Origin: Caulobacter mirabilis
Lineage (GTDB): Bacteria; Pseudomonadota; Alphaproteobacteria; Caulobacterales; Caulobacteraceae
NCBI RefSeq assembly: GCF_002749615.1
Contig: NZ_CP024201.1
Location: 1,984,001-2,048,000 of the forward strand
DNA length: 64,000 bases
Direction: 5' to 3'
The notes beneath the pieces were generated by a model. The model was given only the letters and a program-made list of their open reading frames with translations, made no database searches and was not told the DNA's origin. This document shows, piece by piece, positions 3,982 to 17,420 of the stretch; the first letter of the stretch is position 1, and the number at the start of each line of letters is the position of its first letter. Position numbers and translations under genes: made by a program.

Positions 3982-4005
3982 AGCTGAAGCCCCGCGCGGC
4001 TTCGG

Positions 4006-4512
4006 TCAGGCCGTAAAGGTCCACACCGGTCCGGCCCAGGTTTCGCCGCCGTCCAGCCGTTCCAGTTCGTTGACGCCCGCCGCGCCAAGCGCCTTCGGCC
4101 AGAAGGCCAGGGCACCGGGGTTGCGGTCCAGCACTGCAACCTCCCAACGGCCAGGGTGGAGTTTCAGCACCTGCGCCAGGGCCGCCGCCGCCAGGCCGCG
4201 TCGTCGGTGTTGTCGCATGATGAAGAACTCGGCCATGTTGCGCTCGACGAAGCCGTCGGCGCGGTTGGAGATCTGGTTGACCAGCGCGAAACCGATCGCG
4301 GCGCCGTCCAGCCGGAAGATCAGCGGCCAGCGGCCGTCCTCCTGCCAGTAGGCGTCGAGGTAGGGATAGGGTCGGAACAGCCCGTCCGGCTCGACGTCGT
4401 AGTCCCGCGATCCTTCCGGCGCGATCTCCGAGAAGTCGTAGATGTAGAACTGCATCAGGCCGGCGAGCAGCGCGCTGTCGGCTGGCGTGGCGGGCGAGAC
4501 GGTCAGGATCAT
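4006..4512 (-). CDS. GNAT family N-acetyltransferase
   Basis: The 168-residue protein has a GNAT fold: an opening SPATPADSALLAGLM, the strand FALVNQI, and a motif A acetyl-CoA loop reading RQHRRRGLAAAAL near residues 111-123. A late segment, DRNPGALAFWPKALGA, matches the usual NP.A..FY..LGF motif. It should acetylate an amine-bearing substrate in the cytoplasm; the substrate is unknown. The start is the ATG opening MILTVSPA. The frame continues upstream only into a palindromic repeat, whose translation FPLRPGFAGPPLPRGEEL is not genuine protein. It converges with the gene ending at 3981, 24 bases away. Confidence 0.88.
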   Translation of the reverse strand: MILTVSPATPADSALLAGLMQFYIYDFSEIAPEGSRDYDVEPDGLFRPYPYLDAYWQEDGRWPLIFRLDGAAIGFALVNQISNRADGFVERNMAEFFIMRQHRRRGLAAAALAQVLKLHPGRWEVAVLDRNPGALAFWPKALGAAGVNELERLDGGETWAGPVWTFTA

Positions 4513-4520
4513 GGGACACC

Positions 4521-4583
4521 GTACCAGTTCCTCTCCCCTTGGGAGAGGTGGCCCGGCGAAGCCGGGTCGGAGTGGGAAGAACC
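4521..4583 (+). repeat. Palindromic intergenic repeat, copy A
   Basis: The element contains a hairpin, CTCTCCCCTTGGGAGAG, followed by GGCCCGGCGAAGCCGGG and CGGAGTGGGAAGAA. The reverse complement of the whole unit recurs at 5071-5130 on the other side of the DUF559 gene. It lies between the start codon of the GNAT gene and the 3' end of the DUF559 gene. Confidence 0.9.
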
Positions 4584-4609
4584 ATGGTTGGCCGGCAGGC
4601 GCCGTTCCG

Positions 4610-4660
4610 CCCACTCAGTCGTCGCTTCGCGCCGACAGCTCTCCCAAGGGGAGAGCGACT
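4610..4660 (-). repeat. Palindromic intergenic repeat, copy B
   Basis: This unit reads CCCACTCAGTCGTCGCTTCG and ends in the hairpin CTCTCCCAAGGGGAGAG. Its reverse complement recurs at 5141-5194. It supplies the last codons and the stop of the DUF559 gene, so the repeat was recruited as the 3' end of that reading frame, or the gene was inserted into the repeat. Confidence 0.9.
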
Positions 4661-5022
4661 TTGGTGGGCGCTCGCTCGCCTATCGCCGCAAGGATCGTCA
4701 TGAGGGCCCTGTTCATGTCCTTCAGCACGACTCTCGCCGGAAGGCGAAGCGTGCGGATGCCGCGCTGTGAGAGCCAGTTGTCCCGCGCCGCATCGCGCTC
4801 AGGACGGCCCTCAATGTAGTGCATCGCTCCGTCCACCTCGATCGCTAGGCGCGCGGCGTCGCAATAGAAGTCGAGCACGTAGGGACCGATGGGATGCTGT
4901 CGTCGGAAGTGGATGCCCTCAAGGCGATGCGCTCGAATGGCTCGCCAGAGGAGCCCCTCCGGAAGGGTCATTTCGCGTCGGAGGCGCTTGGCTCTCGCGC
5001 GGGTGGCCGGAGGCGATTGCAT
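4615..5022 (-). CDS. DUF559-family endonuclease-domain protein
   Basis: The 135-residue protein is a stand-alone DUF559 domain, related to very-short-patch-repair (Vsr) and PD-(D/E)XK nucleases. Visible features are RAKRLRREMTLPEGLLWRAI at residues 10-29, RRQHPIGPYVLDFYC with the catalytic-type aspartate near 51, and LAIEVDGAMH with the (D/E)xD pair near 60-67. The C-terminal IRTLRLPARVVLKDMNRAL matches the usual IRVLRF.N.EVL.N. ending. The last dozen residues (ALPLGELSARSDD) are translated from the palindromic repeat. Such genes are widespread and no biochemical role is firmly established. The gene is framed by repeat pairs on both sides. Confidence 0.88.
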   Translation of the reverse strand: MQSPPATRARAKRLRREMTLPEGLLWRAIRAHRLEGIHFRRQHPIGPYVLDFYCDAARLAIEVDGAMHYIEGRPERDAARDNWLSQRGIRTLRLPARVVLKDMNRALMTILAAIGERAPTKVALPLGELSARSDD

Positions 5023-5070
5023 TTAAAAATGCTACTATAAGTGTATTTTCGTGCAAGCGCCCGTCATCTG

Positions 5071-5130
5071 TTCTTCCCACTCCGACCCGGCTTTGCCGGG
5101 CCACCTCTCCCGCGGGGAGAGGAACTGGTA
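5071..5130 (-). repeat. Palindromic intergenic repeat, inverted copy of A
   Basis: This is close to an exact reverse complement of the unit at 4521-4583, running from TTCTTCCCACTCCGACCCGG through the hairpin CCTCTCCCGCGGGGAGAGG to AACTGGTA. It lies about 50 bases upstream of the DUF559 start codon. Confidence 0.9.
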
Positions 5131-5140
5131 GCCACCGGGT

Positions 5141-5194
5141 CGCTCTCCCCTTGGGAGAGCTGTCGCCGCGCAGCGGTGACTGAGTGGGAAGAAC
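5141..5194 (+). repeat. Palindromic intergenic repeat, inverted copy of B
   Basis: This is a near reverse complement of the unit at 4610-4660, containing the hairpin CTCTCCCCTTGGGAGAG and ending GACTGAGTGGGAAGAA. It ends at the stop codon of ruvX and might also act as a structured 3' end for that transcript. Confidence 0.88.
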
Positions 5195-5661
5195 TACCCG
5201 TTCCGCATCCGATCCAACGCGCCCTGGAGGATCCACGTCGCGGCCAGTTTATCGACGGCCTCGCTGCGGCGCTGGCGCGTCGTGTCGAACTCGTCGATCA
5301 GCATCCGGTTCACCGCCGCCGACGACAGCCGCTCGTCCCAGAACGCGATCGGCAGGTCCTTCAGGCGCAGGATGTTGCGGGCCAGAGCGCGGTTCGACTG
5401 GGCGCGGGTCCCCTCGGTGCCGTCCATGTTCATGGGCAGGCCGATGACGATGCCCAGGGCCCCGCGACTCTCCATCAGGGCGAACAGCCGCTCGGCGTCC
5501 TGGGTGAACTTCTTCTTCTGGATCGTTTCCAGGGGGCTGGCCACCATCCGGGTGGCGTCGGACACCGCCACGCCGATGGTCTTCTCGCCCGGATCGAGCC
5601 CGACGACGGGCGCGTACTGGGGCAGGGCGGCGGCGAGTTCGGTGATGTCGAGCACGGGCAT
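5194..5661 (-). CDS. ruvX: Putative Holliday junction resolvase / pre-16S rRNA nuclease YqgF
   Basis: The 155-residue RNase H-fold protein carries VVGLDPGEKTIGVAVSD near residues 19-35 with the first catalytic aspartate. It then has IVIGLPMNMDGTEG near 71-84, FWDERLSS with a catalytic glutamate near 106, and KLAATWILQGALD near the end with the last acidic residue. E. coli YqgF is essential and processes pre-16S rRNA 5' ends; recombination roles are also proposed. Its stop abuts the repeat at 5141-5194. The upstream region holds a second repeat family and then gatC in the opposite direction. Confidence 0.95.
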   Translation of the reverse strand: MPVLDITELAAALPQYAPVVGLDPGEKTIGVAVSDATRMVASPLETIQKKKFTQDAERLFALMESRGALGIVIGLPMNMDGTEGTRAQSNRALARNILRLKDLPIAFWDERLSSAAVNRMLIDEFDTTRQRRSEAVDKLAATWILQGALDRMRNG

Positions 5662-5674
5662 TCCGCTTCATACC

Positions 5675-5771
5675 GTCATCCCGGCCGCAGCGCGAAGCGC
5701 CGAGAGCCGGGATCCGGCTCATTTGCCGGGCGGGCTGGGTCCCGGATCGCCCTTCGGGCGTCCGCGATGAC
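5675..5771. repeat. Imperfect inverted-repeat intergenic element
   Basis: The element opens with GTCATCCCGG and closes with CCGCGATGAC, matching in inverted orientation at 9 of 10 positions. Inner stem-like arms include GAGAGCCGGGATCC and TCCCGGATC. It sits between divergent ruvX and gatC. Elements beginning GTCATCCCGGCCG are frequent between genes in Caulobacter-type genomes. Confidence 0.8.
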
Positions 5772-5844
5772 CCGGCGGTTGCATTCGGCTTGCAATAGTG
5801 GGGTTGCCGCGGGTAACCCCAACCTCGAACGAAAGGAGGCCAAG

Positions 5845-6132
5845 ATGGCCATCGACGCCGCGACCGTCCGCAAGGTCGCCCGGCTCGCCCGCATCGCCGA
5901 ACCCGAGGAGCGGCTCGAGCCCCTCGCGAAGGAGCTGAACGGCATCATCCAGTGGATCGAGCAGCTGGCGGAGGTCGACACCGACGGGGTCGAGCCGCTG
6001 ACCTCGGTCGTCCACGCCAAGCTCCCGCTGCGCGACGACGTCGTCACCGACGGCGGCGACGCGCCCCGCGTCCTCGCCAACGCCCCCAAGAGCGCCGACG
6101 GCTTCTTCGTCGTGCCGAAGGTGGTCGAGTAA
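5845..6132 (+). CDS. gatC: Asp/Glu-tRNA amidotransferase subunit C
   Basis: The 95-residue GatC clamps the GatA-GatB complex that converts misacylated Glu-tRNA(Gln) or Asp-tRNA(Asn) to the correct amide. Typical segments are VRKVARLARI at the N terminus, LNGIIQWIEQLAEVDTDGVE in the middle and LRDDVVTDGG, then the C-terminal FFVVPKVV. The ATG opening MAIDAATV is chosen because AAAGGAGG lies 6-13 bases before it; a longer in-frame extension crosses ruvX and the repeats and is not coding. It leads the gatCAB operon, with gatA starting three bases after its stop. Confidence 0.97.
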   Translation: MAIDAATVRKVARLARIAEPEERLEPLAKELNGIIQWIEQLAEVDTDGVEPLTSVVHAKLPLRDDVVTDGGDAPRVLANAPKSADGFFVVPKVVE

Positions 6133-6135
6133 GCC

Positions 6136-7614
6136 ATGTCCGAACTCACGTCGCTCACGCTGAAGGCCGCCCTGGACGGTCTGAAGACCAAGGATTTCTC
6201 CTCGGTCGAAATCACCAAGGCGCACGTCGCCGCGGTCGAGGCGGCCCGGCCGCTGAACGCGTATGTCCTGGAGACGCCCGAGAAGGCGCTCGACATGGCC
6301 GCCGCCTCCGACGCCCGCATCGCCAAGGGCGAGGCCGGTCCGCTGGAAGGCGCGCCGCTGGGGATCAAGGACCTGTTCTGCACCCAGGGCGTCCGCTCGA
6401 CGGCCTGCAGCAAGATCCTGGGGAACTTCGTCCCGACCTATGAGTCGACCGTCACCGGCAACCTGTTCGGCGACGGCGCGGTCATGCTCGGCAAGCTGAA
6501 CATGGACGAGTTCGCCATGGGCTCGTCGAACGAGACGAGCGCCTTCGGCAACGTCATCAACCCCTGGAAGTCGGCCGCGTCGGGCAACAAGGCCCTGACG
6601 CCGGGCGGCTCGTCGGGCGGCTCGGCCTCGGCCGTCGCGGCCGACCTCTGCCTGGGCGCCACGGCGACCGACACCGGCGGCTCGATCCGCCAGCCGGCCG
6701 CCTTCACCGGCACCGTCGGCATCAAGCCGACCTACGGCCGTTGCTCGCGCTGGGGCGTCGTCGCCTTCGCCAGCTCGCTGGACCAGGCCGGCCCGATCGC
6801 CAAGACGGTCGAGGACGCCGCCATCCTGCTGACCTCGATGGCCGGCCACGACCCGAAGGACTCGACCAGCCTGGACGTCGAGACGCCGGACTTCTCGCAG
6901 TATGTCGGCAAGTCCGTGAAGGGCCTGCGCATCGGCGTGCCGAAGGAGTACCGCGTCGACGGCATGCCGGCCGAGATCGAGAAGCTCTGGCAGGACGGCA
7001 TCGACTGGCTGCGCGAAGCCGGCGCCGAGATCGTCGAGGTCTCGCTGCCTCACACCAAGTACGCGCTGCCGGCCTACTACATCGTGGCCCCGGCCGAGGC
7101 GTCCTCGAACCTCGCCCGCTACGACGGCATGCGGTACGGCCTGCGCGCCGACGGCAAGAGCCTGACCGAGATTTACGAGAACACCCGGGCCGAAGGCTTC
7201 GGGAACGAGGTCAAGCGCCGCATCCTGATCGGCACCTATGTGCTGAGCGCCGGCTATTACGACGCCTACTACCTGAAGGCCCAGAAGGTCCGCCGGCGCA
7301 TCGCCGACGACTTCGACCAGGCCTGGCAGTCGTGCGACGCCCTGCTGACCCCGACGGCGCCGTCGGCGGCCTTCGCGCTCGGCGAGCGGATGGCCGACCC
7401 GATCGCCATGTACCTGAACGACGTCTTCACGGTGACGACCAACCTGGCCGGCCTGCCGTCGATCAGCGTGCCGGCGGGGCTGGACAGCGGCGGCCTGCCG
7501 CTGGGCCTGCAGGTGATCGGCCGGGCGCTGGACGAAGCCACGGTGTTCGCGGTCGCGGGCGCCCTCGAGAAGGCGGCGGGCTTCCGCGGCAAGAAGGCGG
7601 AGCGTTGGTGGTAG
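6136..7614 (+). CDS. gatA: Asp/Glu-tRNA amidotransferase subunit A
   Basis: The 492-residue amidase-signature subunit hydrolyses glutamine and passes ammonia to GatB. The Ser-cisSer-Lys triad is intact: K78 in GIKDLF, S159 in GGSSGGSAS and the nucleophile S183 in [10 protein letters not shown]. The C terminus keeps the conserved [12 protein letters not shown] and [14 protein letters not shown]. Length is standard. The gene sits two bases upstream of gatB and three downstream of gatC, so all three subunits are co-transcribed. Confidence 0.98.
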
Positions 7615-9258: not shown

Positions 9259-9798
9259 CTAGCGGTTGATGATCACGTCCAGGATCAGGCCGGTGGCGAC
9301 GGCGGCCAGCAGATAGTCGCTGCCGTCCCGGTACCAGTAGTAGCCGCGCGGCGGCGGACGCAGGCCGTAGCGGCCGTAGTCGTACACGACGTAGCCGCGG
9401 TCCCGGTAGTAGGGCGGCAGATAGGCGCCGCGACGCCAGGAGGCGTAGCCCGGACGGTAGCCCGGACGGCCGTAGTAGCTGGACGGCGGCGGGCCGTAGT
9501 ACCAACGGTTGTTCCAGTAGTAGCCGTTGTGGCGACCACGATCCCAACGGCTACGCTGGTCCCAGCGATGGTCGTAGCGGCCGTCGCGGCGGTCCCAACG
9601 ATCCTCCCGCCGATCCCAGCGATCTTCCCGACGGTCCCAGCGATCCTCGCGCCGATCCCAACGGCCTTCCCGGTGGTCGCGGCGGTCCTCATGGCGTTCC
9701 CAGCGACCGCGGTCCTGTGCGGCCGCTTCGGTCGCCACGGCCAGCATCGGGCCGCCGACGGCGGCCGCAGCGGCGATGGTGAGCAACAGACGCTTCAT
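9259..9798 (-). CDS. Secreted RcnB-like protein with WDRRED tandem repeats
   Basis: The 179-residue protein has a clear signal peptide (MKRLLLTIAAAAAVGG..., cleavage probably after TEAAA near residue 27). An Arg/Asp/Trp-rich segment follows, in which WDRRED is repeated about four times near residues 47-71. The C-terminal 80 residues match the RcnB pattern: PGY.SWRRGAYLPPYYRDRGYVV, DYGRYGLRPPPRGYYWYR and a final hydrophobic strand. E. coli RcnB is a periplasmic protein in nickel/cobalt homeostasis; whether this one binds metal is not shown. It is convergent with gatB and divergent from the next gene across 192 bases. Confidence 0.85.
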   Translation of the reverse strand: MKRLLLTIAAAAAVGGPMLAVATEAAAQDRGRWERHEDRRDHREGRWDRREDRWDRREDRWDRREDRWDRRDGRYDHRWDQRSRWDRGRHNGYYWNNRWYYGPPPSSYYGRPGYRPGYASWRRGAYLPPYYRDRGYVVYDYGRYGLRPPPRGYYWYRDGSDYLLAAVATGLILDVIINR

Positions 9799-10863: not shown

Positions 10864-11004
10864 CCGCCGGCCCGCGGACCGCCCCGCCGTCATCGTGAAT
10901 GCGGGACGGTCCGTCGATTAACCCTATGTTCAGCGCCGCGGGACTTTCCTGTGAACATCGATATCGGACAGAAGCGTCCGGTCAGAGGTTCGAGGAAGAA
11001 GACC

Positions 11005-11280
11005 ATGCTTGCGAGCATCGACACCGAAGCTCCGGCGACCATCCCGCTGCCAGGACCCGACATGTCCGGCGACGACCTGTTTCGCATGGGGCTGCTGTAT
11101 TCGACCGGGCAGGGCGGCGCGCCGCTCGACTATGTCTCGGCCCATATGCTGTTCAACCTGGCGGCCATGCGCGGCTCGACGGAGGCCAAGGTCTACCGCA
11201 AGGAGCTGAGCGCCGAGATGGACCCGCTCGACGTCGCCGAGGCCCAGCGCCAGGCGCGGGAATGGCTGGCGCAGGGCTAG
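11005..11280 (+). CDS. Small Sel1-like repeat protein
   Basis: The 91-residue protein contains one recognisable Sel1-like helical hairpin: DDLFRMGLLYSTGQGGAPLD followed by YVSAHMLFNLAAMRGSTEAKV. It has no signal peptide. The ATG opening MLASIDTEAP is chosen because AGGAAGAAG precedes it; a GTG 18 codons upstream is possible. A single Sel1-like unit implies a protein-binding scaffold role, but no partner is evident. It converges with the MACPF-like gene, 27 bases away. Confidence 0.75.
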   Translation: MLASIDTEAPATIPLPGPDMSGDDLFRMGLLYSTGQGGAPLDYVSAHMLFNLAAMRGSTEAKVYRKELSAEMDPLDVAEAQRQAREWLAQG

Positions 11281-11307
11281 GCCCCACGCCAGCCGGTTCG
11301 AGGCGGC

Positions 11308-12819
11308 TTATCCGCCTGGGCGGATGACCACGCGCGGCGGTATCCGCGGCAGGGGTCTCGGCTCGAAATCGAAGATCGATCGCGGCAGGCGATCGGAGAC
11401 GACGCCGCTCTGAGCGTCCCACCACAAGACCCCGTTCCTGAAGCGGCTCACCCGGTCGAGACCGTCGCCGACGCCGGCCGGCCAGCCCGGCAGATGTCCG
11501 AGCGCCTCTTCGTCCGCGCGGGGATAGCCGAGCGGGCCCTCGCAGCCGCCGCGCGCCATGTAGGCCAGGAATATCCCGCCATAGACGATGACGGCTTCTT
11601 CCGAGATCTGCGGGTGCCAGAAGATCCCGCCGATCGGCGCGCCGTTGTTGGTGAAGATCTTGTACCGGCCGCCGTCGTGCTCGTCGTAGGTCTCGATGCC
11701 GCCAACGCAGTAGGCCTCGAGGAAGTAGGGCGCGGCGCGGGAGTCATGAAGCTTGACGTACTCCCACTTCTTGTCGAGCGGATCGGTGACGGCCAGCCGC
11801 TTGGGGTAGTCGACGGTCACGGGCTCCAGCCCCTCGAGGCTGCATTGGGCGACATCGGCGGAACACTGCTCGGCGCGTTCCGCCCATCGCGGGGCCAGGG
11901 CGTTCACCGCCGTTCGCTTGCTCTTCAGAAGCTCCAGGTCGAACGGCTCGAACTGACGCGGGTTGGCGATGATGTAGTCCAGCTTGCCGCGCTGCCGGAT
12001 GGCTTCGATGACGTTCCGGCCGCAGGCTTCGATCGTGTCGCGGCGGAGGATGCGGGAGGCCTGGCTGGCGCCCCGCGGCAGCGGCAGGTAGCGGAAGTCC
12101 TTTATATGCGCCTTGTAGTCGATCGGATGGTCGCGCACGGCGACGTTGAAGTTGGCGTAGAGCGCGCGCAGTTCGTCCAGGCTTGCCGGGTTGTGGAGGC
12201 CCGACCCGCCGCTCATCACCGCCTGAATGGACATGGACGCTTTGCGGCTCGCCCGGGCGACGGTGTTCTGGAATGAGGCGGCGATCTCCACGCCGGCAAG
12301 GAAGTTTCCGATCTCGCCGTTCAGTTCGGCCGCGACCTCGCTCTTGCTGCTCTCGTCGCGCGTCCTGAAGGTGAACAGGCCGTAGAACTCGCCGCCGCTG
12401 TAGATGGAGTCGATGTAGGTATCGCCGTAGACAGCCGTGAACTCCTCCGGCGATCGATCGTAGATCGCCTGGGCGGCCGCGGTGAGCCTCGGCGCGCGCA
12501 TGGCTCGCGGCGGGTTCTCGACCTCGACCCGGAACAGGAAGTAGAGCGAGTACTCGTTGACGGCGTGCTGCTGGGCGAACTTCATCTTCGTGTCCAGGCT
12601 GGCCGCCAGGCCATAGCGGGCGGAGAGCGCGGCGGAGATGTTCAGCGACTCCAGCAGGCTCTCCTGGCTTTCGATCATGCTGACGCTGGGATAGGCGTTC
12701 TGGCCGCCCTCGCTGCCGACTTCGCCGGCGTGTTCGATCGCCTCGCCACAGACGCGTTCGACGACGCTGTCGACGCCCATGCCGAAGCGCATGCCTTCTC
12801 GGATGTTGATGGTCTTCAT
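11308..12819 (-). CDS. MACPF-like pore-forming-fold protein with C-terminal LGFP repeat
   Basis: The 503-residue protein is not a standard annotated enzyme. Residues about 40-200 resemble a MACPF/CDC domain. NEYSLYFLFRVEVENPPR at 88-105 is followed by FTAVYGDTYIDSIYSGGEFY at 127-146, close to the family signature Y/F-G-x-x-[YF]-[IV]...GG. The flanking helical segments (54-86 and 162-203) could be the membrane-inserting regions. Near residues 428-461 the sequence GPLGYPRADEE...VSRFRNGVLWW matches an LGFP repeat, a module usually found on secreted actinobacterial proteins. There is no signal peptide, so export or release would need another route. It is last in a three-gene unit behind a C2-like protein and a STAND-type regulator. 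The family call is from motif reading only. Confidence 0.62.
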   Translation of the reverse strand: MKTINIREGMRFGMGVDSVVERVCGEAIEHAGEVGSEGGQNAYPSVSMIESQESLLESLNISAALSARYGLAASLDTKMKFAQQHAVNEYSLYFLFRVEVENPPRAMRAPRLTAAAQAIYDRSPEEFTAVYGDTYIDSIYSGGEFYGLFTFRTRDESSKSEVAAELNGEIGNFLAGVEIAASFQNTVARASRKASMSIQAVMSGGSGLHNPASLDELRALYANFNVAVRDHPIDYKAHIKDFRYLPLPRGASQASRILRRDTIEACGRNVIEAIRQRGKLDYIIANPRQFEPFDLELLKSKRTAVNALAPRWAERAEQCSADVAQCSLEGLEPVTVDYPKRLAVTDPLDKKWEYVKLHDSRAAPYFLEAYCVGGIETYDEHDGGRYKIFTNNGAPIGGIFWHPQISEEAVIVYGGIFLAYMARGGCEGPLGYPRADEEALGHLPGWPAGVGDGLDRVSRFRNGVLWWDAQSGVVSDRLPRSIFDFEPRPLPRIPPRVVIRPGG

Positions 12820-12895
12820 GGCTTCCTCCTGGAAGCGCGCGCGACTCCGCCGAGCGAGGTCGCCGCTGCAAGGAAACGGGGAAGGACGTCGCCGG

Positions 12896-13375
12896 TCAGT
12901 CGACCCGGTAGACGACGTAGTAGTACGAGTTCTCGATGGGCGATTTGGCCAGTTTGGCGATCTCGCCCTGGCCCTGTTCGGAGGCGAACATGGTCACCGA
13001 ACCCAGCAGATCGTCGTCGGAGACGGAGTCGTAGTCCCAGAGCGACAGGTTCTGGGAATGGTCGAAGGCGACGGTGACGTCCGGCGTCTCCGATTGACCG
13101 GCCTGAATCTGGACGACGCCGCCGGCGCTGGGCCAGATGGCGTTGTCGCGTCCGCCGCCCGTGCTGGTGGTGATGTACAGGTCGTCCGGATCGGCGCGGG
13201 CGGCGTCGACGGCGGCGATGACGCCGGGCAAGGCCCTGATGGCCTGCAGCGGCATGCCGCCGAACTCGCCCGGCAGCAAAAGCTCCGGCAGGCCGGCGAT
13301 CGCTTCATTGACGCCGGCGTCGGTCCCGGTCGCCTGCTGGACGCAGTAGATCATCGAGACGGTGGCTTGGGGCAT
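12896..13375 (-). CDS. Small C2-like beta-sandwich protein next to the MACPF-like gene
   Basis: The 159-residue protein is acidic and beta-rich with no signal peptide. Residues about 68-159 look like a C2-type sandwich. The strand DDLYITTSTGG is followed by a Trp-containing strand, then VTVAFDHSQNLSLWDYDSVS and DDDLLGSVTM, where clustered aspartates suggest calcium binding. The end is ENSYYYVVYRVD. The N-terminal 65 residues are unassigned. It lies 76 bases upstream of the MACPF-like gene and 77 downstream of the regulator, all on one strand. A plausible role is calcium-dependent membrane docking or control of the pore-forming partner, but this is inference. Confidence 0.6.
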   Translation of the reverse strand: MPQATVSMIYCVQQATGTDAGVNEAIAGLPELLLPGEFGGMPLQAIRALPGVIAAVDAARADPDDLYITTSTGGGRDNAIWPSAGGVVQIQAGQSETPDVTVAFDHSQNLSLWDYDSVSDDDLLGSVTMFASEQGQGEIAKLAKSPIENSYYYVVYRVD

Positions 13376-13452
13376 GGGGGTCTCCCGAGGCTTGACGCCG
13401 GCCCGGGGCGGCCGGCCTCGGAAGCGGTAACGACGTCGCGCCTACGGATGGC

Positions 13453-16400
13453 CTACGGCCCTTGCGGCGGGCGCAGGGCCGGCGAGATCAGCGCACGGAT
13501 GGCGCTGGACACCTCCTCGTCGGCCGCCTCCTGCCGGCGCTCGTACCGGGCGTAGTCCTCCAGCGCGCCGACCAGATCGTCCCGCGCCAGCCGACCGCTG
13601 ATCAGGGCGCCGTGGACGCGGGCGGAGTCCGGATAGAGCTCGAGGCATCGCAGGTAGATCGCGCGCGCCCTCTGGCCGTCGCCGTCTCCGGCGGCGAGGC
13701 GGTCGGCCAGGCCCAGCGTCAGATCACGAACCCGGTCGGCCGCGACCGTCGACCAGGGATTGGGCGGTTCGTGCGGCAGCAGCGCGCCCGGCAGAGCCAG
13801 AAACGCGGCGCGAAGCGCCGCGCGGTCGCCGCTCTCGATGGCGCTTGCGGCCCGGGCTTCCCAGGCGACCAGGTCCACCCAAACCAGCTCGGACGACAGT
13901 CGCAGCCGCCCCTCGCGCTGGATCACGAGGTCGGGGCGTCCGACCAGTCTCCTCAGTCTGTGCAACGCCTGTTCGCAGGCCGCCTTCGCCTGATCACCGT
14001 CGGAGTCGGGCCAGAGCCAGTCGTACAGCGCGGCCAGGGTGCAGGTGCGTCCCTTGCTGACCGCCAGGATCCGCAGGATGTCGAGCGATCGCGTCGCCGG
14101 CTTGCCGCCGAGCTTCAGCGGAGCATCGTCGACCGCCAGGCCGAAGTCGCCCAGGACCTGCACTCTCAGCGGCCAAGGCCAGCTCGGCCCGGCCTGGGGC
14201 GGCGGGGAAAGGCGCCGCTGAGCGATCAGGCGCCGGCAGAAGTCGGTCGCCGTCCCCTGGGCCAGCGCGTCATCGAGCATCTCCGCGAGGAGGTCGGGAA
14301 GGTTCGACAGGATCTGGCTCCAGCCCGCGGCCGCCAGCTGTTCGACGGCGGTCCGGAGCCGTTCGGGATAGCGGGCGCTGCCGCGGCGCTTCGCGTCGAT
14401 CGCGCCGGCGATGGCGATACAGACACGGGTCCGCTCAGCCACCGCGCCGTCGTCGAACAGCGGTAGAACCGCCTCCAGCTCGCGGATCGCCGTGTCCGCG
14501 TCCCGGGCGGCGATGCGGATCTGGAAGCGGGTGATGAAGTGCGGCCAGCGCTCGATCGGCGGTTCGTCGGCCGCTTCGATGGCCGTCATGAAACGCTCGC
14601 AGGCCTCCGTCGCCGCGGGGACATCGCCGTTGCGGGTGTGAAGCGCGGCCTGGCAATCGGCCACCACCGCCACCTGGGTGGTGTGGCGGCTGTCGGCGAC
14701 GGCGGCGAGCCGGTCGACGAAGGCGGCCAGCTCCTCCCAATCGTTCCGGAGCCTCATCAGGTGCTGGAGGTGGTAGAGCGCGCCGAACTCGACGGCCGGC
14801 AGGGCTTCAGCCTCGCCCAGGGCGACCGCCGTGCGCAGGGCGTGCTCGCCGCCGTCGTGGGGGAAGCCGCGCCGCGCATAGGGAAAGTAGCGGCCGCTGA
14901 CCGCGCCGAACGCCACGAGCCACAGGCCCAGGATCCATGGCGCGATGCGCTTCTGGCGCAGGTCGTCGGCGACGCTGTCGACCGCGCGCTCGAACAGGTC
15001 GGCGGCGCCGGTGGAGCCCGCGTGTTCGATCACCGAAGCGCTGGCCAGCAGACGCATGGCGACGCTTTCGCCCGAGGCGCGGACGGCGAGGCGTTCGGTC
15101 AACCGAATGGCCAAGGCCCCTCCGACCGGACCGGCCGCGGCCAGATCGTCGGCGAAGTCCATCGCGCGCAGCATTCCGACCAGCACCAGCAGGTCCTCGT
15201 CGGAGGAGGCGGGGATCCATGGCTTCCCCAGCAAGGCGGTCGCGCGACGGGTCCAGGCTGACAGGCCCGCGTGGGTGCGCCAGCTGTCGGTCTTGGTCAG
15301 CACCGCGCGGGCGGCGGCCAGGTGCTGGCCGCGAAGGTCGCCTTCGCTTTCGAAGAGGGTCCAGGCCCGGCCGAGCCAGATCTCGGCGACGGCGTCGTCC
15401 GGCAGACTCGCCACGCCCCGCCAGTAGCAGAGCCAGCTGTCCCGCTCGGCTTCCGGCAGGCGATCGCACCAGTCGATCACCGTGCTGCGGCGTCCCTGGT
15501 CGAGCAGGGCTTCGGCGTGGTCGTTGATCAGCGCTCTCGCCAAGGGCCAGGCGCCGGCGGCGAGGGCCAGCTCGACGGCGTCGACGGGACGGCCGGCCGC
15601 CGCCAGCGCTTCCGCGGCGCGTCTCTGCAGCTGGGCGCGCTGTGTCGCCGGAACGGTTTGTTCGAGCCGGCGGTGCAGGAAGTCCCGCAGCAGATCGTGC
15701 AGTCGAAGCGTGTTGCGGTCGGCCGCCGTTCCGGTGGTCAGCAGCTGACGCCGGTGAAGCCGGTCGAGCAGCGTCTCCGCGTCCCGCGATCCGACCATCT
15801 CCGCCGCCAGCTGAGGCGTGATTTCGGGCAGCAGGCTGAGGATCTGCAGGCCGCTTCGCTCGGACTCCGGCAGGGTCTCGAACACCTGGCGGCCCAGGAC
15901 GTCGAACAGCGCCGCTTCGCCGACGGGGCCGTCGCCGCCGGCGGGCGTCAAGGGCGCGCCGGCGAGATGGCCTTCCGACAGGAGCACCAGTCCGGCGGCC
16001 CAGCCCTTGGCCACGGCGAGGTCGATCACGGGGGCCTGGTGCGAGCGTTCGGCGACCAGCGCCCGGGCTTCCGGCTCGGAGAATTGCAGCAGGCCCTGGT
16101 CGAGCACGGCCAGATGGCGGGACAGCAGCAGATCGGCGAGATCGCGGGGCGGCAGGGTCCGCGACAGGCCCAGGCAGCGGACGGTCGACGGAGTTTCCCT
16201 CACCAGGATCGACAGGACCGCCCGGAAGTCCTCGGTGTCGGCATGGTGCAGGTCGTCCAGCACCAGCAGGGTGTTCGGCGGCAGTCCCGCGAACAGGGCG
16301 CGGAAGAACCGCCGCGAGAAGGCGGGGAGTTGATCGGCGTATTCCGGGCCATACCGAGGCAGCGCTTTTGCGACGGCGCTCGGGGCGGCCAGCGACAGGT

Positions 16401-16638
16401 AGTGGAAGAAGCTGGCGACGTCCTGATCGCCCTCGTCGACGCGGAGCCAAAGAGTGGCCGCTCCGCGTTGTCGGACCAGATCCACGGCGGCGGTCGTCTT
16501 GCCGTAGCCCGCCGGGGCCGCCACCCAGACGTTGGACTCGGCGAGCTGAGCCTCAAGGCGCTGCGACACCCGGGGACGGGCCAGCGTCCGGCCGGTTCCA
16601 GGCGGCGACAGCTTTGCGATCGCGGGGCGTCCGGACAT
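13453..16638 (-). CDS. Large MalT/SARP-type transcriptional regulator (STAND ATPase plus BTAD)
   Basis: The 1061-residue protein is a one-piece signal-sensing regulator. A STAND NTPase lies at the N terminus, with Walker A APAGYGKTTA at residues 41-50 and Walker B LLVLDDLHHAD at about 124-134. A winged-helix and helical region follow. A long tetratricopeptide-like middle spans about 330-800. From residue 824, LRVQVLGDFGLAVDDAPLKL begins an OmpR-type winged-helix DNA-binding domain joined to a bacterial transcriptional activator domain ending near 1061. The ATG is preceded by GGAGGAG. It is the first gene of the regulator/C2-like/MACPF-like unit and lies 68 bases after hfsD on the same strand, so readthrough from hfsD is possible. 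The ligand is unknown. Confidence 0.88.
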   Translation of the reverse strand: MSGRPAIAKLSPPGTGRTLARPRVSQRLEAQLAESNVWVAAPAGYGKTTAAVDLVRQRGAATLWLRVDEGDQDVASFFHYLSLAAPSAVAKALPRYGPEYADQLPAFSRRFFRALFAGLPPNTLLVLDDLHHADTEDFRAVLSILVRETPSTVRCLGLSRTLPPRDLADLLLSRHLAVLDQGLLQFSEPEARALVAERSHQAPVIDLAVAKGWAAGLVLLSEGHLAGAPLTPAGGDGPVGEAALFDVLGRQVFETLPESERSGLQILSLLPEITPQLAAEMVGSRDAETLLDRLHRRQLLTTGTAADRNTLRLHDLLRDFLHRRLEQTVPATQRAQLQRRAAEALAAAGRPVDAVELALAAGAWPLARALINDHAEALLDQGRRSTVIDWCDRLPEAERDSWLCYWRGVASLPDDAVAEIWLGRAWTLFESEGDLRGQHLAAARAVLTKTDSWRTHAGLSAWTRRATALLGKPWIPASSDEDLLVLVGMLRAMDFADDLAAAGPVGGALAIRLTERLAVRASGESVAMRLLASASVIEHAGSTGAADLFERAVDSVADDLRQKRIAPWILGLWLVAFGAVSGRYFPYARRGFPHDGGEHALRTAVALGEAEALPAVEFGALYHLQHLMRLRNDWEELAAFVDRLAAVADSRHTTQVAVVADCQAALHTRNGDVPAATEACERFMTAIEAADEPPIERWPHFITRFQIRIAARDADTAIRELEAVLPLFDDGAVAERTRVCIAIAGAIDAKRRGSARYPERLRTAVEQLAAAGWSQILSNLPDLLAEMLDDALAQGTATDFCRRLIAQRRLSPPPQAGPSWPWPLRVQVLGDFGLAVDDAPLKLGGKPATRSLDILRILAVSKGRTCTLAALYDWLWPDSDGDQAKAACEQALHRLRRLVGRPDLVIQREGRLRLSSELVWVDLVAWEARAASAIESGDRAALRAAFLALPGALLPHEPPNPWSTVAADRVRDLTLGLADRLAAGDGDGQRARAIYLRCLELYPDSARVHGALISGRLARDDLVGALEDYARYERRQEAADEEVSSAIRALISPALRPPQGP

Positions 16639-16706
16639 GCTGCTGCTCCTCCGCCGGCGCTATTCTAGCAGAAGGCGAGCGGGGCATCAGCCCTTGGGGC
16701 CGGAGG

Positions 16707-17420
16707 TCAGTTCCGGCCGTTGATGGCGTAGTTGAAGCCGAGCTGGATCGGCGACAGGTCGCGGAACCACTGCTGCATCCACAGCCCGGCCTCGGCGACG
16801 CTGCTGCGCGGCACATAGACGATGTCGAACCGGCGCAGCGGGACCAGGTCGGCGTTCGGGTTGCGCATGGCCTGCTTGAGATTGACGGTCCGCATCATGG
16901 CGCGGCCATCGGGGCCGCGACGGATGATCACCACCCGGTCGACCTTGGCCGTGGGACGGAAGCCGCCCGCCTGGATCACGGCCTGCAGGCTGTTGATGTC
17001 GCCGGCCATCTCGAACACGCCCGGGTTGCCGACCTCGCCGCCCACGAAGACGCGCAGGGGGCTGATCGCCTTGACCTGGATCTGCACCTCGGGGCGCAGC
17101 AATTCGGCGGCGTAGGCGGCGGAGAGGTCGCGCTGGAACTCCGGCAGGGTGCGGTCGGCGGCCATCACCGGATCGACCAGCGGCATGGTCACACGCCCGT
17201 CCGGCTGGACGATCACGCCGGTGCGGCTGAGCTCGGGAGCGGACGGCACCGCGATGTCGACCTGGTCGCCCGGATAGAGCCGATACTGCGGCTCGGTTTC
17301 GGTCCAGTCGGCATAGCCGATGTCGGGGAAGGCCTGGGTCGGGCGCGCCACGGCGGGACCCGCGGCCGGCAGGGCCGTGGACAGGGCCAGGACGAGACTG
17401 AACAGGGCGGCTCCGCGCAT
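16707..17420 (-). CDS. hfsD: Holdfast polysaccharide export protein, Wza/BexD family
   Basis: The 237-residue protein has a signal peptide (MRGAALFSLVLALSTALPAA) and a polysaccharide biosynthesis/export domain beginning YRLYPGDQVDIAV near residue 47. A SLBB-type region follows: LRVFVGGEVGNPGVFEMAGD near 123 and IQAGGFRPTAKVDRVVIIRR. It should form the outer-membrane secretin-like pore for holdfast polysaccharide. Unlike Wza, no lipobox cysteine is visible in the leader. It is divergent from hfsA across 84 bases, whereas Caulobacter crescentus is reported to have hfsD, hfsA and hfsB in one operon. The ATG opening MRGAALF is chosen because the leader begins there. Confidence 0.9.
   Translation of the reverse strand: MRGAALFSLVLALSTALPAAGPAVARPTQAFPDIGYADWTETEPQYRLYPGDQVDIAVPSAPELSRTGVIVQPDGRVTMPLVDPVMAADRTLPEFQRDLSAAYAAELLRPEVQIQVKAISPLRVFVGGEVGNPGVFEMAGDINSLQAVIQAGGFRPTAKVDRVVIIRRGPDGRAMMRTVNLKQAMRNPNADLVPLRRFDIVYVPRSSVAEAGLWMQQWFRDLSPIQLGFNYAINGRN

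Follow-up and report, generated by a model that had tools for sequence, protein, structure and literature searches.

The described systems closest to the locus considered here are the aegerolysin/MACPF binary pore-formers (Aeg-S/Aeg-L and OlyA6/PlyB), in which a small lipid-binding protein is paired with a larger MACPF-type protein; we take Aeg-S to be the aegerolysin and Aeg-L its MACPF-type partner. Perforin-1 carries a MACPF and a C2 domain in one chain. We analyzed a 64,000-nucleotide stretch of the Caulobacter mirabilis genome (contig NZ_CP024201.1, positions 1,984,001 to 2,048,000 of the forward strand; hereafter the window), in which three minus-strand genes stand in a row, encoding a 1061-residue regulator, a 159-residue C2-domain protein and a 503-residue MACPF-LGFP protein. 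Our favored reading, to which we lend roughly even confidence, is that this cassette is a laterally acquired two-component pore-former in which the separate C2 protein acts as a Ca2+-triggered membrane adaptor.

The core of the 503-residue protein is related to Aeg-L by sequence profile and fold, and by analogy the pair may be likened to the two-component MACPF kind. It does not belong to the aegerolysin pairs themselves, because its small component is a C2 domain and not an aegerolysin; its MACPF protein also has an LGFP tail, and the pair is bacterial, with both genes in order on the same strand. Unlike perforin-1, the window has a separate C2 gene 76 bp before the MACPF gene, and the MACPF protein adds the LGFP tail (identity to perforin-1 in those alignments, 11–15 percent). 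Stonustoxin ranks first among the Foldseek matches to the pore core (residues 1–338), with a similarity that takes in the helices after the MACPF domain; it presumably differs in its other domains, Pfam finding LGFP alone in the rest of the window protein. With the LGFP domain of corynebacterial mycoloyltransferase A the window protein has its tail alone in common, and it has no enzyme domain. The two-component CDC-like toxins (CDCL) of Bacteroidota, as presented in the excerpted text of PMC11169675, differ in that both parts are CDC-like and activated proteolytically, and in that the producer counters them with a lipoprotein on its surface. In the excerpted text of PMC9505663, MACPF binary pairs are described with aegerolysins only. 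In the open-licence literature no paper was found on MACPF together with LGFP, none on bacterial or prokaryotic C2 domains as phrases, and, in titles and abstract beginnings among the matches listed, none on a bacterial MACPF-C2 pair or a MACPF-LGFP protein.

The features of the pair are as follows.

11308..12819, minus strand: gene of the MACPF-LGFP protein (503 residues)
11788..12819, minus strand: predicted pore core, MACPF domain plus helical hairpin (residues 1–344)
12391..12429, minus strand: MACPF signature Y131-G-x2-Y-x6-G-G143, present in 23/23 aligned members, own included
11392..11784, minus strand: LGFP-repeat tail (residues 346–476)
12896..13375, minus strand: gene of the C2-domain protein (159 residues), without a signal peptide by inspection
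13181..13207, minus strand: predicted Ca2+-binding loop 1 (residues 57–65, with D57 and D64)
13010..13036, minus strand: predicted Ca2+-binding loop 3 (residues 114–122, with D114, D116 and D122), aligned to ferlin C2 stretches

The three open reading frames (ORFs) are genes, because third-codon-position G+C is 0.88–0.90 in all of them, each ATG is preceded by a purine-rich stretch, and full-length relatives exist for all three. Their gaps are 77 bases (regulator to C2) and 76 bases (C2 to MACPF), so that the layout given in the original prediction agrees with the ORF coordinates. Overall G+C is 66–67 percent in the C2 and MACPF-LGFP genes and 72 percent in the regulator gene.

The 503-residue protein has a MACPF/CDC fold as judged from its predicted structure: over residues 1–340 it resembles stonustoxin, perforin and the Aeg-L pore of fungi, and a profile match to Aeg-L was obtained at E 2.4e-10. 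The absence of MACPF/CDC likeness, which would have spoken against the predicted pore-forming fold, was thus not observed. The YGDTYI...GG motif fits the pattern [YF]G..[YF].{6}GG at residues 131–143, in the N-terminal half of the protein and not in its middle, where it had been placed. The MACPF signature is given as Y/F-G-x2-F/Y-x6-G-G in the available part of PMC9505663, which also states that some fungal MACPF-type sequences are missed by Pfam. The family alignment comprises 23 of 24 matches, own included (7994 candidates scored; P0024, of 323 residues, left out). Beta-amphipathic peaks were observed at 57–60 and 155–161, with values close to or beyond the 99th percentile obtained by permuting columns. 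A hydrophobic N-terminus was found in 0/23 members (best 10-residue mean 1.25, a crude measure). The LGFP part named in the original prediction is likewise borne out, at 27.8 bits against a Pfam cut-off of 22. The LGFP domain of MytA holds onto the arabinogalactan-peptidoglycan wall, according to the excerpted text of PMC11299179.

The 159-residue protein is, on modeled structure, a C2 domain with a predicted Ca2+ site. Pfam PF00168 scored it at 13.2 bits against a cut-off of 22; the assignment, already made in the original prediction, stands despite this because of the structure and the ligand residues. In the alignment of 74 sequences (73 of 76 matches plus the window protein; the short P0061, P0097 and P0100 left out), acidic residues occupy the expected ligand positions: D57 in 73/74, D64 in 74/74, D114 in 71/74 (E in the other 3), D116 in 74/74 and D122 in 74/74. 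Loop 1 was assigned from general C2 anatomy, which the loop assignment as a whole follows in part. The window protein starts directly with the first strand. An aegerolysin as small component was also considered and rejected: at E up to 1, 9 Pfam families had a match in any of the 74 members, none of them an aegerolysin family, and the C2 fold and ligand pattern were found instead. Aegerolysins were likewise absent from the fold matches listed, a listing that excludes nothing by itself.

Relatives of the two proteins recur together elsewhere, as far as contig sizes tell: MACPF-LGFP and C2 relatives sit on equal-sized longest contigs for 4/23 non-self MACPF matches (78685, 99990, 3779819 and 3369 bases), and the longest two or three of these coincidences are hardly due to chance. 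The MACPF alignment hit 6/398 genomes across the phylum (besides this one, four with the core and one with LGFP only) and 8/299 in the family (besides this one, two core and five LGFP-only), the window genome giving the only full-length match among these 299. The C2 alignment hit 1/75 genomes in the genus, this one only; 1/385 in the class; 4/398 in the phylum, the three others weak and partial, with one locus viewed by ORFs; and 12/249 in the family of genome G689, two of them full-length. Viral contigs yielded no relatives of either protein. On genome contigs, none of 146 pattern matches of the MACPF alignment was a relative, and 5 of 40 were for the C2 alignment. At one locus (L071; loci are denoted L plus a number), a minimal C2-like gene lies between two ORFs that share SLYRT..SYRS.G-type N-terminal stretches (4003–4929, 5297–5620, 5719–6624).

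The segment that holds the cassette and its surroundings are as follows.

11281..16706, no strand: inserted segment, from the Sel1-type gene to the polysaccharide-export (hfsD-like) gene; flanks 15–57 bp apart in 5/7 relatives
13453..16638, minus strand: regulator gene (1061 residues)
10951..11280, plus strand: left flanking gene, Sel1-type (25.6 bits, under the cut-off of 30.7)
16707..17300, minus strand: right flanking gene, Poly_export/SLBB, presumably hfsD-like by the usual holdfast gene order; start tentative

Synteny was compared in 7 of the 11 relatives with fetched loci, all of the same genus. The Sel1-type and hfsD-like genes adjoin in 7/7; the space between their aligned coding ends is 15–57 bp in 5/7 and about 640–700 bp, with room for another ORF, in 2/7. 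The same space measures 5.4 kb in the window and holds all three genes. The three genes therefore occupy one insert at a variable site, and the insertion claimed earlier is borne out; their lateral acquisition forms part of the evenly weighted reading given above. A search for repeats at the insert ends (8-base seeds) gave only a handful of short matches, and none has the position of a target-site duplication. Between 10800 and 17600 no sigma-70-like promoter was found and terminator-like sites were at chance level (2 found vs 2.2 expected), so that co-transcription of the three genes is neither supported nor excluded.

The regulator is a relative of MalT and not MalT itself, as judged from sequence: residues 15–389 match the solved MalT structure 8bob (E 1e-18), and the NCBIfam MalT score of 141.5 bits lies far below the 537-bit equivalog cut-off. 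Its C-terminal part would be of the BTAD/SARP class by its relatives, many of which, among the matches listed, carry BTAD (PF03704). In the window protein itself Trans_reg_C was weakly detected (16.4 bits, cut-off 26.2). Of the STAND-ATPase/SARP-like description given earlier, the ATPase part is thus supported as MalT-like, and the BTAD end is seen in relatives and weakly here. The best 120 relatives, self included, of 191 at E 1e-60 (7990 candidates scored) were compared; they are about 49–59 percent identical and include Mesorhizobium, Inquilinus and Rhizobium proteins. In the genus, relatives at E up to 1e-50 were found in 1/75 genomes, this one only. Among these matches, 0/119 non-self relatives had a contig equal in size to those of MACPF or C2 relatives, and for this reason the regulator as a conserved third part was dropped; it is better regarded as a local companion. 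The conservation of all three genes together, the lack of which was to count against the original prediction, thus stands for the MACPF/C2 pair at the level of the size coincidences and not for the regulator, which was not seen with the pair elsewhere in these comparisons. A defense-system reading was also set aside, PADLOC having returned two weak Cas3 matches for the regulator (E 0.067 and 0.086) and none for the C2 and MACPF-LGFP proteins.

Under the favored reading we infer the following course. The C2 protein would be the membrane adaptor, soluble in the Ca2+-poor cytosol and docking on anionic lipid when Ca2+ is met outside. Its physical partner would be the 503-residue protein as pore subunit, whose MACPF core (residues 1–344) would be recruited, form rings and insert two helical clusters as amphipathic beta-hairpins; the LGFP tail would anchor it on a cell-wall polysaccharide. 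As no signal peptide is seen in either protein, the pair would be stored in the cytosol and probably set free when the producer lyses, or else by an unrecognized route. By inspection no immunity gene was visible and no secretion signal was seen, as noted originally; a need for Ca2+ would leave the living producer unharmed and so account for the lack of an immunity gene. Expression of the pair is probably turned on by the adjacent MalT-like regulator in response to a small ligand. More tentatively, and somewhat short of even confidence, we liken the pair to a bacterial "split perforin", in which the separately encoded C2 protein would be a Ca2+-operated arming switch, the pair being harmless in the cytosol and active after cell breakage. 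With the same reserve, it might correspond to the aegerolysin/MACPF pairs with C2 in the place of the aegerolysin, built on a core that bacteria equip with interchangeable tails (LGFP, PASTA, crystallin, GON, jacalin, phage collar). Gating of this kind would be comparable to perforin being kept inactive in granules, as described in the excerpted text of PMC7593815. If true, the stand-alone bacterial C2 protein would mean that the adaptor role is interchangeable between an aegerolysin and a C2 domain (in perforin, one in the same chain). It would also hint at the way in which pore-formers kept in the cytosol can spare a producer that has no immunity gene, and would make available a simple purified system in which to study the recruitment and triggering of a MACPF ring by a separate adaptor.

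Several results weigh against this reading. A shared contig is deduced from matching contig sizes and not from DNA; the 3369-base coincidence could be chance, given two near-misses within 5 bases, and the distance correlation of the five MACPF/C2 pairs is weak (r 0.73, with 8/120 permutations as high). For the MACPF fold, the Aeg-L superposition has a poor root-mean-square deviation (11.6), Pfam PF01823 gave no match to the window protein, or in its own genome, and matched only 3/23 members when E values up to 1 were allowed (lowest 0.018; a crystallin-tailed relative reached 17.5 bits, cut-off 21.5), and the amphipathicity test is unclean, a third and higher peak lying at 269–277 in a predicted helix outside the hairpins. 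The VIA Z for the C2 protein is middling (8.2), and Pfam C2 matched 46/74 members under the same limit of E 1, with 7.3e-4 as the lowest value. Export of the C2 family is not excluded by the crude N-terminus measure, because 20/74 rows, the window protein not among them, exceed 1.8, and visibly signal-bearing distant relatives score 1.85–2.06 on it. Signal-peptide-like N-termini occur in four distant actinobacterial C2-like relatives (L068, L069, L072, L073). All five actinobacterial genomes with C2 relatives, searched whole, lack a MACPF-core match (one has LGFP matches only), as do the stretches fetched at eight C2 loci (L066–L073). In three of these five genomes, Streptomyces C2 genes, near locus position 8000 in L019 and L020 and around 1900–2350 in L021, neighbor an M23 peptidase (L019, L020), DUF6519 (L019) and Baseplate_J (L021), which resembles a phage-tail-like cluster; a zinc-ribbon-like ORF follows them by eye (sub-threshold Pfam match, tested in L019 only). 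Because relatives occur without the MACPF core, near other genes and in some cases with signal-peptide-like N-termini, the C2 protein belongs to a wider family found in several settings, of which the MACPF adaptor would be one use.

The MACPF protein bears its own LGFP tail and may need no adaptor. It could thus be a one-component pore-former whose tail alone binds the target, its C2 neighbor serving some other purpose, for instance attachment or the repair of membranes; we consider this unlikely, although it accords with the C2 relatives that lack a MACPF-core match. It is also favored by the variety of other ends built onto the same core (profile positions about 5–344 at best, fewer elsewhere) in genomes and on plasmids, where tblastn found five records, four of the pore core and one of LGFP: PASTA (L007), beta/gamma-crystallin (L025), GON (L026, L005), jacalin (L003) and phage tail-collar (L002, L074), besides a charged, helical-looking end by eye (L024), almost no end (L027) and ends without a Pfam match (L004, L008). 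Against it stand the 4/23 size-matched contigs and the two-gene arrangement on a Streptomyces plasmid (L025, plus strand), where the gene of a 172-residue protein of three LGFP repeats (4415–4933) precedes the MACPF-crystallin gene (4986–6593) by 52 bp, in a stretch that also has transposase and recombinase genes. Because the core has many ends and LGFP is a separate gene at L025, these comparisons suggest that the pore core is combined with exchangeable targeting parts, as a rule in one chain and sometimes perhaps from a neighboring gene.

The absence of a signal peptide in the MACPF-LGFP family and the adjoining MalT-like STAND-type ATPase would also suit intracellular suicide, in which infection is sensed by the regulator and the producer's own inner membrane becomes the target of the C2 and MACPF proteins in its cytosol. 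We hold this abortive defense to be quite improbable: PADLOC gave only the weak matches above, the LGFP tail speaks for a wall ligand outside the cell, and the Ca2+ level of the cytosol should not suffice to operate a C2 switch. Very improbable, in our estimate, is a third alternative, in which the C2 protein is a component of phage-tail-like particles and the pair a remnant of their cargo that became detached. To the Streptomyces neighborhoods can be added an 8.7 kb contig (L074, minus strand) with a MACPF-core relative fused to a tail-fibre/collar end (230–1813; PHROG tail fibre, 1.2e-28), which may be a phage tail fibre that includes a perforin-like domain; the contig also encodes a phage major head protein (5818–6768; 2.2e-24). 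The window LGFP part has, in addition, a weak PHROG endolysin match (1.9e-4). No tail gene occurs among the window genes scanned, however, and scattered links do not make one history.

The space between the Sel1-type and hfsD-like genes is a variable cargo site beside holdfast-type genes. Other sequence fills it in two relatives (L048, 2121–2819; L049, 10058–10698), the contents being an open frame of 214 codons, parts of which look membrane-like, and another that is SET-domain-like by eye. Elsewhere in the window, an RcnB-type protein (9259–9798, minus strand) carries a run of imperfect RWDRREDR-like repeats.
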